Shown here: positions 8,967-50,352 of the stretch, in pieces
How positions within the stretch are numbered: the first letter of the stretch is position 1
Layout: the number at the start of each line of letters is the position of its first letter
Source of the DNA: Pirellulales bacterium
Lineage (GTDB): Bacteria > Planctomycetota > Planctomycetia > Pirellulales > Thermoguttaceae
Length of the DNA: 59,438 nt
Reading direction: 5' to 3'
Assembly (NCBI GenBank): GCA_016931995.1
Contig: JAFGDS010000141.1
Location: forward strand, 1-59,438
Made by a program: the position numbers and the translations under genes
Notes under the pieces: model-generated
What the model was told of the DNA's origin: nothing
Database searches by the model: none
The model's input: the letters and a program-made list of their open reading frames with translations, nothing else

Positions 8967-9225
8967 CGCGGCTGCGCCGCGGGATTTTCTAAGGCATAAG
9001 TCCGGTGTCCAATGGGATTCAAGAAAACGGCCCCTGGTGACGAACGCCATCAGGGGCCTGACGCGCCATTGGCGCACCGGATCCTGGATATCCCTCATCA
9101 GGTTGCGTCCCCGCGGAGCCTGACTCCGTTTCTCCAGGCGCCTTCAGTATATCCGCGCCGAGAAACCACCCGCAAGTACCATTGGACACCGGACATATGC
9201 CTCGAAAATCCCGGGGCGAAGCCCC
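8967..9225. repeat. Outward-facing pair of a hairpin-tailed repeat (CCATTGGACACCGG family)
   Basis: Two copies of a roughly 50-bp element in inverted orientation, at 8967-9015 (minus) and 9179-9225 (plus). Each has a core CCATTGGACACCGGA then ATGCCTYRGAAAATCCC, and ends in a small hairpin (CGCGGCGCAGCCGCG or GGGGCGAAGCCCC). Cores face inward and hairpins outward. The pair spans the nuoM end and supplies most of its C-terminal extension. Confidence 0.85.
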
Positions 9226-45479: not shown

Positions 45480-47546
45480 TTGTCCAAGCTCGCCTATCTG
45501 GTCATCCGCGACGGCCTGAAATGGACGGACGTGTTTCGGCTGGTCCCCGGCCAGTCCGTCACGATCGGCCGCGCCGCCACCAACCAGATCGTCGTCAAGG
45601 ACGACCGCTGCAGCCGCAACCACGCCGAGATCTTCAGCTCGGAAGGCCAATGGACACTCCGCGACCTGGACAGCCGCAACGGCACCATGGTCGGCGACCA
45701 GCGCGTCACCGGCGACTGGGTCCTCCGGCCCGCCGACGTGATCCGCGTCGGCCGGTCCCAGTTGGTGTTCGTTCACCATCTGACCGAGGCCTTCAACGAT
45801 CCACCCACCGCCGTCGTCGCGCCGGAGCTCGACGCGACCCATTCCGACAACGTCCTCGACGACGACTCCAACGTGCTCGAACCCTTCGAGCCAACCACGA
45901 TCACGCATCGCCGCGGGCAAACCCGGTTCCTCGAGCCAAGCCAGCCGTCCGAGGAAAACCAAGAGCGCCGCGAAGACAATAAGGAGGAAGTCGACGATAC
46001 CGGCATCTCGAAGCAGGGCCAGGCCGCCGCGCGGCTCTGCAGGATCGCCTTCGAGCTGGCCAAGGCGCCCGACTTGCCGAAGATGGCCGACTTGGCCCTG
46101 GCCGGGCTCTTCGAGAGCACGCACACCGACACCGGCGCGTTGCTCCTTTTGCCGCGCGATTCCTCGAAGGAACCCGACGGCGCGGACCTCGAAATCGTCG
46201 CCCAGCGGACCCTCGCCGAACAGCGGTACCACCGCCTGTCGAATTTTCTCGCCACGACGATCATGCGCGAGGGCGAGGCCGTCCTGGCGCGAAACGTCAT
46301 GGGCGACAGCACGCTGGGTAGCCGCGACAGCAAGGGCGAGATCCTCGCCACGAGCGTCATCTGCGCCCCCGTGCGCCACGCCAACCGCACGCTCGGCCTG
46401 ATCCACCTCTACTCGACCGACTCGCGCCGCGTGCCCGACCCGGACGACCTCGAATTCACCCTCGCCGTGGCCGACACCGTGGCCGTGGCCCTGGTCAACC
46501 TGAACCGGCGGCAGGAGCTGACCGAAAACCTCAGCCAGATGCAGGACGAAAACACCCAGCTCCGCGAGCGGCTGGGAGTGACCAGCGAAATCATCGGCTC
46601 CAGCCAGGTCATCCGCCAGGTCACCGAGCAGATCGCCCGCGCGGCCGCCAGCAACGCCACGGTTCTCATCCGCGGCGAAAGCGGCGTCGGCAAGGAGCTG
46701 GTCGCCCGCGCGATCCACTACTCCAGCGCGCGGAGCAAAAACACGTTCGTCTGCCTCAATTGCGCCGCGCTATCGGAGGACCTGCTGGCCAGCGAGCTAT
46801 TCGGCCACGAGCGCGGCGCGTTCACCGGCGCGACGGAGCGCAAGATCGGCAAGTTCGAGGCCGCCGATCGCGGCACGCTCATGCTCGACGAAATCGGCGA
46901 GATGAGCCCCGGCATCCAGGCGAAGTTTCTCCGCGTGCTCGAGGGCCATCCGTTCGAGCGCGTCGGCGGAAACAAGCCCGTCAAGGTGGACGTCCGCGTG
47001 ATCGCCGCCACCAACCGCGACCTCGAACAGGACGCCGCCGACGGACGCTTCCGCCGCGACCTGTATTTCCGCTTGCATGTGCTGGAAATCGTCGTTCCCG
47101 GCCTGCGCAAGCGCCTCGACGACATCCCCGAGCTGGCCTACTACTTCCTCCGGAAGTACGTCGACGAAACCGGCCGCAAGATCGAGGGATTCTCCGACGC
47201 CGCCTTGCAGCAGTTGATCACCTACCGCTGGCCCGGCAACGTCCGCGAGTTGAAGAACGTCATCGAGCGGGCGGTCGTCCTCTGCCGCGGGCGGCTGATC
47301 GACCAGGGCGACTTGTTGCTGTCGAAACTGCCCACCGCGGGCCCCACCGGCCAGCTTGGTCCCGCCGATCGCTTCAACCCCTGCTCGCTGGCCGATCTGG
47401 AGCGCGACCACATCCTCGCCACGCTCCAACACACCGCCTGGAACAAGAGCCGCGCGGCCACCCACCTCGGCATCGAACGCTCCACCCTCGACCGCAAGAT
47501 CCGCCGCTACCGCCTCACCGAGGAATCGCCGTCGTCTGGCAATTGA
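45480..47546 (+). CDS. Sigma-54 activator with FHA and GAF sensor domains
   Basis: 688-aa transcriptional activator. FHA domain at about 5-100 ([39 protein letters not shown]), a GAF domain at about 185-345, AAA+ domain at about 375-610, and a Fis-type HTH at about 640-685 ([20 protein letters not shown]). The AAA+ part is fully canonical: Walker A GESGVGKE from residue 399, GAFTGA from residue 446, Walker [14 protein letters not shown] suggests it reads a phosphothreonine signal from a Ser/Thr kinase. The first codon is TTG 45480. A good candidate regulator of the next two reading frames, 115 nt downstream. Confidence 0.93.
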
Positions 47547-47661
47547 CCCGCGCGGAGATTGGCAATCGCGACGGGACGGTGTACACTGACGGGCAGTCCG
47601 CCGCGGCAGACACCGTCTCGCCGGCGCTGACACCGGCCAGAGGCCCTCGGAGGACGCGACC

Positions 47662-48186
47662 ATGAGGTACATGGCCCTCGCGTTGGCCTTGGTTTGGTGT
47701 TGGATGCCCAGCGCGGCCTTTGCGGCTGAGGAGGCAACTCCCCCTCCTCTTCAAAAGCAACTCTGCGATCTGCGTATCCAGGGCGAAGCGATCGACCTGC
47801 TCGTGCTCGTCGAGAAGAACAACCTCGCCGGCGTCCAGTTCGCGCGACCGGGCAAGATTCTGCGGCTGCCACCGGGGCGATACCGCGTCCAGACCGTGGA
47901 CGTGGCCGGCGGCTTCCGGTTTGACGACCGCGGTCGATGGAATGAAGGCTGGTTTGATCTGACCCCCGACCAGCCCGGCGAAATCGCGGTCGGCGCGCCG
48001 CTGTCCTCCCGCGTGAGCGTGACGCGGCACGGCACGTTCCTTCAGTTGGACTACGCCCTGGTCGACGCCGAGGGCCGACCCTACGACCGGTTCGCGAACA
48101 ACTCGCCGTGGCGCCGGGCCGCGCCGATGTTCTCCATCCACAAGGATGGGAAGGAGATCGGATCCGGTTCGTTCGAGTACGGCTGA
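47662..48186 (+). CDS. Exported domain of a UGA-interrupted membrane protein, N-terminal part
   Basis: 174 aa ending at TGA 48184-48186. Signal peptide (MALALALVWCWMPSAAFA), then a domain of unknown function rich in beta-strands (LRLPPGRYRVQTVDVAGGF, MFSIHKDGKEIGSGSFEYG). Translation continues in the same frame after the TGA with GGTCAYSWRVPP and on through four or more helices to 49074 without another stop, so this is very likely only the N-terminal part of a 470-residue protein. The upstream frame boundary is clear and ATG 47662 follows GGACGCGACC. Whether the TGA is read through, recoded or is a mutation cannot be told here. Confidence 0.75.
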   Translation: MRYMALALALVWCWMPSAAFAAEEATPPPLQKQLCDLRIQGEAIDLLVLVEKNNLAGVQFARPGKILRLPPGRYRVQTVDVAGGFRFDDRGRWNEGWFDLTPDQPGEIAVGAPLSSRVSVTRHGTFLQLDYALVDAEGRPYDRFANNSPWRRAAPMFSIHKDGKEIGSGSFEYG

Positions 48187-48217
48187 GGCGGCACCTGCGC
48201 GTACTCGTGGCGAGTAC
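48184..48217 (+). promoter_or_regulatory. In-frame UGA followed by SECIS-like hairpin
   Basis: TGA at 48184-48186 is followed 14 nt later by GTACTCG-TGG-CGAGTAC (48201-48217), a perfect 7-bp stem with a 3-nt loop; outer GGCG (48187-48190) can pair with CGCC (48218-48221). The loop is 21 nt from the UGA and has a G in its first two positions, within the published bacterial SECIS limits. The residue context would be FEYG-U-GGTC. Confidence 0.4.
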
Positions 48218-49074
48218 CGCCCACCGCCGGCGCCGGCACGCTTTCTATCGTCGCCCGAGAGGACCTCGGCGAACTGGGGCCCGCCGAAAGCCCGCCGGCG
48301 GAGTTCACGTGGCGGTGGTACTACAACCTGCCGAGTCTCCCGCTTTGGATCGTACTGGGGTTGCTGCTCGTTGTGCCCCGGGCCAACCGCAACCGCCAGG
48401 CGTGGCTGATCCTGATCTTGCCGCTGCCGCTTGCGGCGTTCTGGCAAGTCCTTTGGCTGGTCCTCGGACCATCGTACGCGCTCGAGTCGATGGCTCTCTG
48501 GACGACTTCTCTCGCGATTGCCTGGGCGAGCGTTTGGCTCGTGACGCCGTGGCTCGGTGGGACCGGCCGGGCCCGCGCGTGCATTGGAGCCCTGGGTGTG
48601 ATGGCGGCGGCATTGGCGTTGGCTTATGTCGGGTACTTCGGCCTGTGGGTGTCGGCCCAAACGTCGCTGCGAACGGCGGCCCTTGGGGTCTCACTGGCCG
48701 TTCCTCTCGTTGTCGCCACGGCGCTTGCCGCGCGACAACGTCCCGCCGGCCGGGCGCGGCCGTCCTTTGGCTGGTTGGCGCTGGGGTTAGTCGTGTTCGT
48801 CGAAGTGTGCGTGCTCGTCGTCATGACGCCGGCGAACTTTGGTCCAAGAGCGTTCTTCTCGGGGAGGTTCCTCGAACAGTTTGTTCTTCAAAGCCAACCA
48901 ATCGTGGCGGCCTTGGTGGTCTTCCTGTTCCTCTTCAACCTGCCGGTGATGCTGCTTTGCAGCTATAACTCCTGCTATCGCCAGCGGCTGGAGACCATGT
49001 TCCCGGCGGCCGGACGCCCGCCGGCGGAGCCAGAGGACCCAATGAGGCGGCAGGAAGGTCAGAACCGCTTCTAG
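48187..49074 (+). CDS. Membrane domain of the same UGA-interrupted protein, C-terminal part
   Basis: In frame with 47662-48186 and directly after its TGA. It begins GGTCAYSWRVPPTAGAGTLS, an extracytoplasmic continuation, then has a WRWYYNLPSLPLWIVLGLLL helix and further helices (AWLILILPLPLAAFWQVLWL, GVMAAALALAYVGYFGLWV, LALGLVVFVEVCVLVVM, IVAALVVFLFLFNLPVMLLC). No good Shine-Dalgarno supports separate initiation; a TTG at 48361 is the first formal start. The last codons lie in a terminator hairpin. The family is not recognised. Confidence 0.65.
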   Translation, partial: GGTCAYSWRVPPTAGAGTLSIVAREDLGELGPAESPPAEFTWRWYYNLPSLPLWIVLGLLLVVPRANRNRQAWLILILPLPLAAFWQVLWLVLGPSYALESMALWTTSLAIAWASVWLVTPWLGGTGRARACIGALGVMAAALALAYVGYFGLWVSAQTSLRTAALGVSLAVPLVVATALAARQRPAGRARPSFGWLALGLVVFVEVCVLVVMTPANFGPRAFFSGRFLEQFVLQSQPIVAALVVFLFLFNLPVMLLCSYNSCYRQRLETMFPAAGRPPAEPEDPMRRQEGQNRF

Positions 49075-49099
49075 AGAGAAGAGGTTCTGACCGTTCTTT
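49057..49099 (+). terminator. Rho-independent terminator overlapping the end of the membrane-protein frame
   Basis: GGTCAGAACC (49057-49066) pairs with GGTTCTGACC (49083-49092), and CTTCT with AGAAG inside, giving a 15-bp stem with one mismatch and AGAG loop. It is followed by GTTCTTTT. The stop codon lies in the loop region. Confidence 0.75.
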
Positions 49100-49425
49100 T
49101 AGAACAACTCTCGCGGATCGGTGGCACGCTCTCAAGCGTAGCGACGGGCGTGGTGGCCCCAAAGCCGACTTTCCCCCTGGCGTTCATCCGACTCATCTTG
49201 CCCTGCGCAGGGGCTCTGCCCCCGCACCCCCGGGATTTTGGGAGGCATGACTCCGGTGTCCAATGGTGCATGTCACGGGTGGGTTGCCAAATGAACGCGT
49301 CGTTGGTCCAGCGCTCGACGGGCGCACTGGCAGAGCCAGTAGCACACGGCTGGCCGTGCCATTTCCACACCCATTGGACACCGGAGCTATGCCTCAGAAA
49401 ATCCTGCGGCGAAGCCGCACTTGTT
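49100..49425. repeat. Gap with outward-facing CCATTGGACACCGG repeat pair
   Basis: No gene. Two copies of the hairpin-tailed element lie at 49210-49266 (minus) and 49371-49419 (plus), in the same inward-core arrangement as at 8967-9225. Between them is a GCACTGGCAGAGCCAGTAGC element. Confidence 0.85.
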
Positions 49426-50352
49426 TCACGGCTTGCCGGACTCCATCGCGTACTCCACCGAAAACGTCTCGGCCGGATCGTCGCCGCGGCGATCGAGCTT
49501 CGGCGAGTAGGCCTCGACGTGGATCGTGTTCTCGGCCGGGGCAAAACGCAGGATCCGAAGCCAGCCCTGGCCGCCGTTGGGTAGATTCTGGTAGTCGGTC
49601 ATCAACTCGATCACGGGCGTGCCCGCGTCCGTCTCGGCCACCGACCGATTCGCCCCCCAGTGATGCCCGCAGACCACCAGAAACACGTTGGCGTGCTTGC
49701 GGATGAGCTTGTCCCACATCCGCTGGCCGATTTCGTCACGGCCCTTGCGGAACAGGTAGCAGTGCGTGGCGACGATCGCGCGGTGGTCGGCGTGGCGCCG
49801 CAGCACGTCGTCGGCCCAGGCGTACGTCGCGTCCATCGGGTCCCACTCGAGGCTCAGCACGAGGAACTTCATCCCGGCCGCCTCGAACCGGCAGTAGTTG
49901 TTGTCGTTCGTGCCGTCCTCGTTGCCGCCGTACCAAGGGCAGCCCTCGAAGCGGCTCGGCGGAAAGTACTTGCCGTAGAGCGACGCCCGGCGCTCGGGCA
50001 CGCGTTTGTTCTCCTCCATGTCGTGGTTGCCCGGCAAGACGCTATAGGGGACCGCCCCGTCCAGAATCTTGTGCGCCGCGTCGGCCGCCTTCCACTGCGA
50101 CTCTTCCGTGGCCTTGTCCACGATGTCGCCCAGGTGGATCACGAACTTGATGTTCCGCGTCTCGGCCTGTTCCTTGATCCACTGCGCCTGCTGGCAATAG
50201 ATGTCGGGATGCTTCTCGCTGTAGTACTGCGTGTCGGGCAGCAGCACCACGCTGAAGTCTTTTGCCGCGTCCGCCGCCGCGCTGCCGACGGTTGGAAGGA
50301 ACCAAACCAAACCAAGGGCCGCGACGCGAAGGAATGATCGACGATGAAACAT
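49426..50352 (-). CDS. Exported calcineurin-like metallophosphoesterase
   Basis: 308 aa. The N-terminus HRRSFLRVAALGLVW looks like a twin-arginine (Tat) signal, with cleavage near SAAA. Metal ligands of the family: LLPDTQYYSEKHP, HLGDIVD, LPGNHDMEE, IVATHCYLF and CGHHWG. The intact set of Asp, Asn and His residues predicts a dinuclear metal phosphoesterase acting in the periplasm. Substrate unknown. ATG 50352. Converges with the membrane-protein gene. Confidence 0.9.
   Translation of the reverse strand: MFHRRSFLRVAALGLVWFLPTVGSAAADAAKDFSVVLLPDTQYYSEKHPDIYCQQAQWIKEQAETRNIKFVIHLGDIVDKATEESQWKAADAAHKILDGAVPYSVLPGNHDMEENKRVPERRASLYGKYFPPSRFEGCPWYGGNEDGTNDNNYCRFEAAGMKFLVLSLEWDPMDATYAWADDVLRRHADHRAIVATHCYLFRKGRDEIGQRMWDKLIRKHANVFLVVCGHHWGANRSVAETDAGTPVIELMTDYQNLPNGGQGWLRILRFAPAENTIHVEAYSPKLDRRGDDPAETFSVEYAMESGKP

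Follow-up and report, generated by a model that had tools for sequence, protein, structure and literature searches.

FdhF of Escherichia coli is a bacterial selenoprotein whose in-frame UGA is decoded by SelB and a selenocysteine insertion sequence (SECIS). Here, we describe a gene that resembles this type of selenoprotein in its decoding signals and differs from it in its predicted scaffold. The gene lies at positions 47662 to 49074 of contig JAFGDS010000141.1 (59,438 nucleotides (nt); hereafter, the window), from the Pirellulales bacterium assembly GCA_016931995.1. Its reading frame is interrupted by a single UGA that, judging from the conservation of the codon and its surroundings, very probably encodes selenocysteine (Sec), so that the gene is not broken. 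As in FdhF-type selenoproteins, there is an in-frame UGA, a hairpin loop 21 nt away, a G in that loop, and a genome with selA, selB, selD and tRNA-Sec. Unlike FdhF-type selenoproteins, the family has as its scaffold a predicted exported immunoglobulin (Ig)-like domain, not an enzyme of the molybdopterin or thioredoxin-fold kind; it has few Cys forms, and its hairpin sequence is nearly constant across many lineages.

Two other groups of described systems invite comparison, both as given in the 2026 catalogue PMC13188914. First, the thioredoxin-like proteins with U-x-x-C or C-x-x-U motifs and the UGSC family (NF041046) share with the present family a Sec that usually has a Cys on its C-terminal side. 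The family differs in its U-x-x-x-C spacing, its predicted beta-sandwich fold and the absence of any NCBIfam match in 62 members (0/27 and 0/35 against NCBIfam 20.0 at E 0.01, a scan that excludes catalogue entries with only cd or PTHR models). Second, the SAO and Tso selenoprotein operons of Haft and colleagues, as cited there, likewise cluster Sec genes in specialized neighborhoods; the neighbors of the present family differ, being selA, selB, a SelD-AhpD fusion, HGD-D/double-cubane reductases, an activase, a methyltransferase and a NapH-like ferredoxin. One reductase and the activase at a neighboring locus (L203) qualify as double-cubane cluster reductase (NF040772) and acyl-CoA dehydratase activase (TIGR00241), with a tie to the selenoproteins by gene neighborhood only. 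The gene and its parts are as follows, in window coordinates:

47662..49074, + strand: selenoprotein gene of 470 codons, one of them the UGA (Sec175), stop TAG; same UGA in homologues
47649..47654, + strand: probable ribosome-binding site GGAGGA, 7 nt 5' of the ATG, identified by eye
47662..47724, + strand: probable signal peptide, residues 1-21, identified by eye; helix 2-13 in the AlphaFold2 model
48004..48321, + strand: Sec-carrying beta-sandwich domain of Ig/fibronectin type III (FNIII)-like type, residues 115-220, from the AlphaFold2 model and VIA-align
48184..48186, + strand: UGA probably read as selenocysteine, residue 175; TGA kept in homologues
48196..48198, + strand: TGC, the putative partner Cys179 of the U-G-G-T-C motif, from homologue alignments
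48201..48217, + strand: SECIS hairpin GUACUCG-UGG-CGAGUAC, 7 bp, from covariation, codon constraint and a covariance model
48208..48210, + strand: apical loop UGG of the hairpin; spacing from UGA to loop 21 nt
48337..48999, + strand: multi-helix membrane domain, residues 226-446; helices from the model, membrane nature judged by eye
45480..47546, + strand: upstream neighbor, FHA-GAF-sigma54 activator-Fis; its TGA is a real stop, and a role in the selenoprotein system is unsupported

Reading the codons confirmed what a first-pass annotation of this DNA had reported, i.e., a frame with a lone UGA: 174 codons, TGA at 48184-48186, 295 sense codons and TAG, with no other stop. That annotation was likewise accurate on the join, FEYG-x-GGTC-AYSWRVPP, and on a 7-bp stem with a UGG loop. 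Its spacing of 21 nt is true of the distance from the UGA to the apical loop, but the stem itself starts 14 nt past the UGA. The stem of the window gene is 7 bp long, and in many homologues it extends to 8 bp.

A first line of evidence for a functional UGA is its retention in homologues. A search with the read-through protein covered 147 whole genomes, most of which belong to the family and order of the window, and gave matches in 17 of them at a threshold of E 0.001. Among the 48 matches listed, 45 have an in-frame TGA, two stop short of the site and one (G002:C506) spans it without TGA, i.e., 45 of the 46 site-spanning matches keep the codon. At 29 places the TGA was seen directly at the Sec site by reading the sequence, and the window's own genome has further family members on contigs C83 (two), C71, C15 and C39. 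A profile from a domain alignment (A1) of 27 rows, picked with a motif and leaving out L008, L018 and L030, was run on 392 genomes from the phylum and matches 34, of which 27 have a TGA-containing match. A broader scan covered contigs from one genome per species, in 84,980 species, using the pattern F-[EQ]-[FY]-G-NNN-G-x-x-C...W-x-V-P, which fixes the flanking residues, including the Cys at +4, and leaves only the site codon free to vary. There were at least 133 matches (132 distinct) in at least 116 stretches, and the codon is TGA in 133/133 of those listed. Since this set shares some genomes with the 147-genome search, the two tests are not independent. Among the matches listed, 80 titles include 53 planctomycete, 11 Verrucomicrobiota, six Hydrogenedentota, four Omnitrophota, one Lentisphaerae and one Sumerlaeota entries. 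Homologues therefore keep UGA at FEYG-x-GGTC, with no unrelated residue among these matches.

Full-length alignments extend this picture to the protein after the UGA. Alignment A3 has 35 rows, one of them a 121-residue fragment (L003), and A4 consists of 26 of 28 candidate references plus an own-genome paralogue. The segment after the UGA is conserved as protein in A3. Neither alignment shows variation at the Sec site or at the +4 Cys, a result forced by the scan pattern in most rows; nearly all rows are scan-derived, so that the +4 Cys and the G, W, V and P are constant by construction. The A3 profile matches 43 of the 392 phylum genomes. Of the 59 matches listed, 27 have TGA and 32 have no visible stop. 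Among these 32, seven that were inspected all have a UGA just beyond the matched stretch; 20 more that were inspected comprise 13 with UGA, two with Cys (L269, L275) and five distant ones without the motif; of the rest, three match the membrane part only and two lie in genes already known to have TGA. The majority belong to a second subfamily, described below.

The second line of evidence is the hairpin. Across 106 distinct YSWRV sites, with expectations drawn from the codon usage of the same frames, the codons that form the stem are strongly biased. Tyr is TAC in 106/106 (57 expected) and Arg is CGA in 101/106 (14 expected); Ser is TCG in 83 and TCA in 23 (28 and 10 expected); Val is GTA in 81 and GTG in 25 (12 and 35 expected; together 106 vs 46), with GTC and GTT together at 0 vs 60. 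Hairpin codons are thus fixed against codon usage, and by this measure the hairpin behaves as an RNA element. Covariation points the same way. Across 29 sites in alignment, standard pairs fill 96.6% of the 232 pair cells, and nine cells have two-sided changes, compared with 1.3 in shuffles (0/500 shuffles as high). A second set (A6) has 27 more divergent rows, from A1-profile and later profile matches, L008 and the window gene. Here 78.7% of 216 cells are paired vs 62.4 in shuffles, 30 cells have two-sided changes vs 8.4, and the covariation score is 0.427 vs 0.156, none of the three being equaled in 500 shuffles; moving the pairing partner along the sequence reduces the covariation score. A6 kept 27 of 36 rows, a selection that favors structure: L065, L068, L071, L074, L079 and L080 were left out for apparent indels between the UGA and the hairpin, and L075, L076 and L078 since MAFFT gapped them. 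Because many rows come from paralogues or closely related genomes, pair cells are not independent. Divergent examples include GGAUAUUC-UGC-GAAUAUCC and AGUGCGUU-UGG-AACGCACU, the second within a different peptide.

The hairpin is also far more frequent after family UGAs than after others. With a loop start 17-27 nt past the TGA and a bare-stem energy of at most -5 kcal/mol, 131/132 motif TGAs and 31/35 divergent family TGAs pass, compared with 311/3000 random TGAs, so that the hairpin proposed in the first-pass annotation is beyond chance. Energy, spacing and loop rule were relaxed after a stricter test, and four thresholds were tried, each with a fresh draw of 3000 TGAs; the motif/divergent/random counts are 132/33/519 at -3, 131/32/418 at -4 and 129/30/199 at -6. 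Lastly, we built a covariance model from 46 hairpin sites. In the own genome, six matches are strong, with E from 2.7e-11 to 4.8e-7 (the next have E 0.75 and 3.7), and they coincide with the six protein members. All six are training sites, and the test therefore lies in the absence of others and in the wider set. In the 147 relatives the model finds 63 sites (24 of them training sites) in 17 genomes, 16 of which are also protein-positive, with up to seven sites in one genome; the remaining 130 genomes have no match at E 0.01.

Third, the genome has the machinery to decode Sec. All four components that the first-pass annotation named for a search are present: selA (531 bits) and selD (367 bits), both above cut-off, selB (316 bits; cut-off 242), and tRNA-Sec (80.4 bits, above cut-off), which ARAGORN calls tRNA-SeC tca, i.e., with a UCA anticodon. 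Across the 392 phylum genomes, selB (E 1e-60) is found in 25/27 with TGA-containing family members vs 211/365 others (Fisher p 1.3e-4, a rough value because the genomes are related and not independent). In addition, the genes are often physically linked. In a set of 116 named loci, none longer than 8 kb and several of them on one contig, tblastn finds a selA, selB or selD match in 40, or in 38 counting selA or selD only, since the selB query may also catch other GTPases. By our estimate from gene sizes, chance proximity to a sel gene is expected at well under 1%. Together, the conserved UGA, the covarying hairpin and the Sec machinery strongly support the reading of the gene as a selenoprotein with a SECIS-like hairpin, which the first-pass annotation had raised as a possibility.

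Several observations weigh against this reading or limit it. In the 29 sites only two of the eight pairs vary two-sidedly, a number reached by 133/500 shuffles, and the seven of eight pairs with two-sided changes in A6 are reached by 48/500. A strict version of the published rule for bacterial SECIS elements (bare stem of -7.5 kcal/mol or lower, G within the first two loop positions) is satisfied by only 66/132 and 16/35 family sites, compared with 228/3000 controls. The window hairpin itself just misses that cut-off, with -7.2 kcal/mol for the bare 17-nt stem (-13.3 in a 25-nt local fold), and an Rfam scan of 47000-49500 gives no SECIS family and four sub-threshold matches. Two genomes with TGA-containing members have no selB match (G154, 83% complete; G455, 56% complete), and the window gene stands alone in its genome, away from Sec and iron-sulfur (Fe-S) genes. 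The +4 Cys is missing from 11/35 divergent sites, including that of the own-genome C39 member (L214). Finally, there are homologues without Sec: L020/L211, one repeat of L210, L081, L269 and L275 with Cys, and distant relatives without the motif.

The residues around the Sec suggest what it might do. The first-pass annotation saw a redox-like C/U-GGT-C pair, a description that suits the window gene and most relatives but is not universal: the +4 Cys is present in 27/27 rows of A1 (rows picked with the motif) and in 24/35 divergent sites, one further site has Cys at +3, and L008 likewise lacks the +4 Cys. A Cys in the membrane part is found in 28/33 A3 rows and is absent from the window protein. 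Replacement of Sec by Cys is rare. It was seen in 0/133 of the main-motif matches listed from the free-codon scan and in three cases in the wider superfamily: L081, whose genome (G528) has no selB match, and L269 and L275 of a second subfamily, where a Cys codon stands at the UGA position even though selB is present in the genome (G323, G340). The usual abundance of Cys homologues in selenoprotein discovery, helpful though not strictly required, is thus lacking here. The suggestion in the first-pass annotation that the window UGA arose from TGC by one base change finds no support in these counts. Distant non-Sec relatives include L073, L082, L083 and L084.

The second, distant subfamily has its UGA in another motif (FPGSC-U-GRGF, FPGSC-U-GRGFVPVAVSVP or GGC-U-GGGF), with a Cys that mostly precedes the Sec. 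Its loci are L239, L242-L248, L257-L260, L262, L263, L265-L268, L271 and L274, and in L244, L262 and L268 two in-frame UGAs are consecutive.

Family members come in two architectures. Of the 132 distinct sites among the matches listed, 42 have at least 250 residues after the Sec, 88 have at most 130, and two fall between; the window gene belongs to the long-tail type, for which 271-323 residues follow the U in 32 homologue references. The AlphaFold2 model of the window protein has a mean predicted local distance difference test (pLDDT) score of 88.3 and a predicted template modeling (pTM) score of 0.82, with beta domains followed by helices and an uncertain loop at 176-178. Nine helices of at least eight residues lie within 226-446, mostly with pLDDT >90. 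For residues 115-220, VIA-align lists beta-sandwich domains, chiefly of Ig/FNIII type, with a best Z of 7.3 and a root-mean-square deviation of 2.9 over 79 residues; a Z below 8 may reflect a common arrangement only. Foldseek gives no match to the window model at E 0.001 or better, and a thioredoxin fold is absent among the matches listed, an absence that is no proof. The paralogue on C83 was modeled with a pLDDT of 81.9, and for the secreted paralogue Foldseek returns two multi-domain surface proteins at E <0.001, with uninformative TM-scores of about 0.1. A profile search of PDB sequences gives one match (E 3.6e-4), to a surface adhesin, in an alignment that stops before the Sec site. The window protein matches no family in Pfam (E 1), NCBIfam or PHROGs. 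In the short-tail type, the segment after the U consists mostly of strands of the Sec-bearing domain, and Pfam finds GEVED in 6/27, SHD1 in 4/27 and nothing else. The product is predicted to be exported, with an Ig-like fold and a C-terminal membrane anchor.

These features suggest the following mechanism. SelB with Sec-tRNA(UCA) would decode the UGA at 48184, directed by the hairpin at 48201-48217. The protein would be exported, its Ig-like domain bearing Sec175-Gly-Gly-Thr-Cys179 and held in the envelope by the predicted C-terminal membrane domain. Judging from the Sec with its neighboring Cys, its activity would most likely be a reversible, Sec-based redox step of selenenylsulfide/dithiol type outside the cytoplasm, which we consider fairly likely. 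Electrons might come from the NapH-like membrane ferredoxin and the double-cubane reductases with their activase, which are encoded beside relatives; this route, suggested by gene neighborhood only, is a tentative one. Equally tentatively, the family could form part of a Sec-dependent extracytoplasmic redox system of the Planctomycetota-Verrucomicrobiota-Chlamydiota (PVC) group and neighboring phyla, in which many paralogous exported Ig-fold Sec proteins, usually with a Cys at +4 and linked to Sec-synthesis genes, would receive their drive through the membrane from double-cubane reductases together with a NapH-like ferredoxin. Such a system would have escaped notice because discovery methods depend on Cys forms, which are rare.

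Of the alternatives to a redox role, the one that survives best is that Sec serves to bind or deliver a metal or selenium, without redox turnover. The presence of selD and selA among the neighbors, the C-U or U-U at the site of the second subfamily, and the incomplete conservation of the +4 Cys among the divergent sites are all consistent with such a role. Set against this, the main family has a single Sec per protein, and the +4 Cys of the window gene and most relatives resembles a redox pair; we consider binding or delivery rather unlikely. Less probable again is a regulated stop, where termination would release a free exported domain, Sec insertion at plentiful selenium would give a membrane-anchored form, and both products would function. 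Termination and Sec insertion are known to compete in E. coli, and the UGA of window-type genes separates the exported domains from the membrane domain. However, strands 180-184 and 192-199 of the modeled domain follow the Sec, and in the short-tail type (88/132 of the sites listed) the segment after the U also consists mostly of same-domain strands, so termination at the UGA would cut the fold.

The remaining alternatives concern the UGA itself. It could specify an ordinary residue, through a reassigned code or near-cognate tRNA readthrough, and a hairpin after a stop codon can indeed promote readthrough. We regard this as very improbable. General reassignment of UGA is ruled out, because in the own genome selA, selB and the sigma-54 gene all terminate at a genuine TGA stop; moreover, the family tracks selB, lies near sel genes in many loci, and occurs here in a genome with tRNA-Sec(UCA). 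A nonsense mutation, pseudogene, or assembly or base error that leaves the part after the TGA dead, although a lone TGA in one draft genome has that look and the first-pass annotation kept it in play, is excluded by the conservation of the UGA across homologues (which makes a base error irrelevant), the conserved frame after it and the covarying hairpin.

Selenocysteine at the UGA, then, places the gene in what is apparently an uncatalogued, large family of exported selenoproteins of planctomycetes and related bacteria. None of the 119 prokaryotic selenoprotein families in Table 1 of PMC13188914 could be equated with it. A description of the family was not found in open-access text; the supplementary list of putative selenoproteins in the Porphyra planctomycete paper, which lay outside the search, could name a member. 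PMC13188914 states that in nearly all selenoenzymes the Cys homologues are the more abundant form and that most characterized selenoproteins have a thioredoxin-like fold. To be retained by deep-Sep, a candidate needs either a known homologue with Sec or two or more Cys homologues in its top matches, so that a family in which Cys forms are scarce could be missed. The present family is large, is listed under six phylum-level names, nearly always has Sec, and has a predicted Ig-like exported scaffold. Annotation pipelines that terminate at UGA would truncate its proteins, and many members are therefore probably mis-annotated. It is now testable which extracytoplasmic chemistry requires Sec, and so seldom Cys, and why environmental bacteria with the family retain Sec decoding. 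The near-constant hairpin also offers a handle for finding selenoproteins that lack Cys homologues.

In several relatives, UGA genes lie near a methyltransferase, three HGD-D proteins, an activase, a SelD-AhpD fusion, a membrane ferredoxin, SelA and SelB. Across the 116 loci, a NapH-like protein is matched in 27 and the first reductase in 18. The membrane ferredoxin matches Pfam Fer4_5, and the NapH model only under its cut-off. At L203, the first reductase passes the double-cubane cluster reductase model NF040772 (401.1 vs 350 bits) and the activase passes the acyl-CoA dehydratase activase model TIGR00241 (249.6 vs 125.4 bits), while the two further HGD-D reductases fall below the NF040772 cut-off. 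At four loci, selenoprotein genes adjoin a gene for a SelD that begins with a Cys-rich segment and carries an AhpD-like (CMD) domain at its C terminus. The linked loci are:

L203:7641-13039: methyltransferase, three HGD-D/double-cubane type reductases and activase, linked to Sec genes
L222:852-5777: methyltransferase and reductase genes beside selA, own-genome contig C133, by eye from gene ends
L204:280-1926: SelD-AhpD fusion, from Pfam and NCBIfam
L207:5937-7562: SelD-AhpD fusion, from Pfam
L212:622-2286 and L227:16337-17956: SelD-AhpD fusions, judged from the sequence start

Two minor observations concern Sec-machinery genes. L044 (G000:C121:4917-6254) encodes a second SelA-like protein, at 253 bits just under the selA cut-off of 267.9, and L036 (G000:C24:1470-1556) is a second RNA match above the tRNA-Sec gathering score (49.9 vs 47 bits), perhaps a tRNA-Ser.

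In the window itself, the FHA sigma-54 activator does lie upstream of the selenoprotein gene, as the first-pass annotation remarked, but a role for it is unsupported; no such neighbor was recognized when the gene lists of relatives were inspected visually, with no dedicated search made. Just 3' of the gene, at 49228-49409, is a 39-nt inverted repeat whose arms are 85% complementary and 104 nt apart. Its 16-nt core also occurs at 9000, 9179 and 54870 (five matches vs 0.11 expected), and the repeat belongs to a small family resembling miniature inverted-repeat transposable elements (MITE-like).

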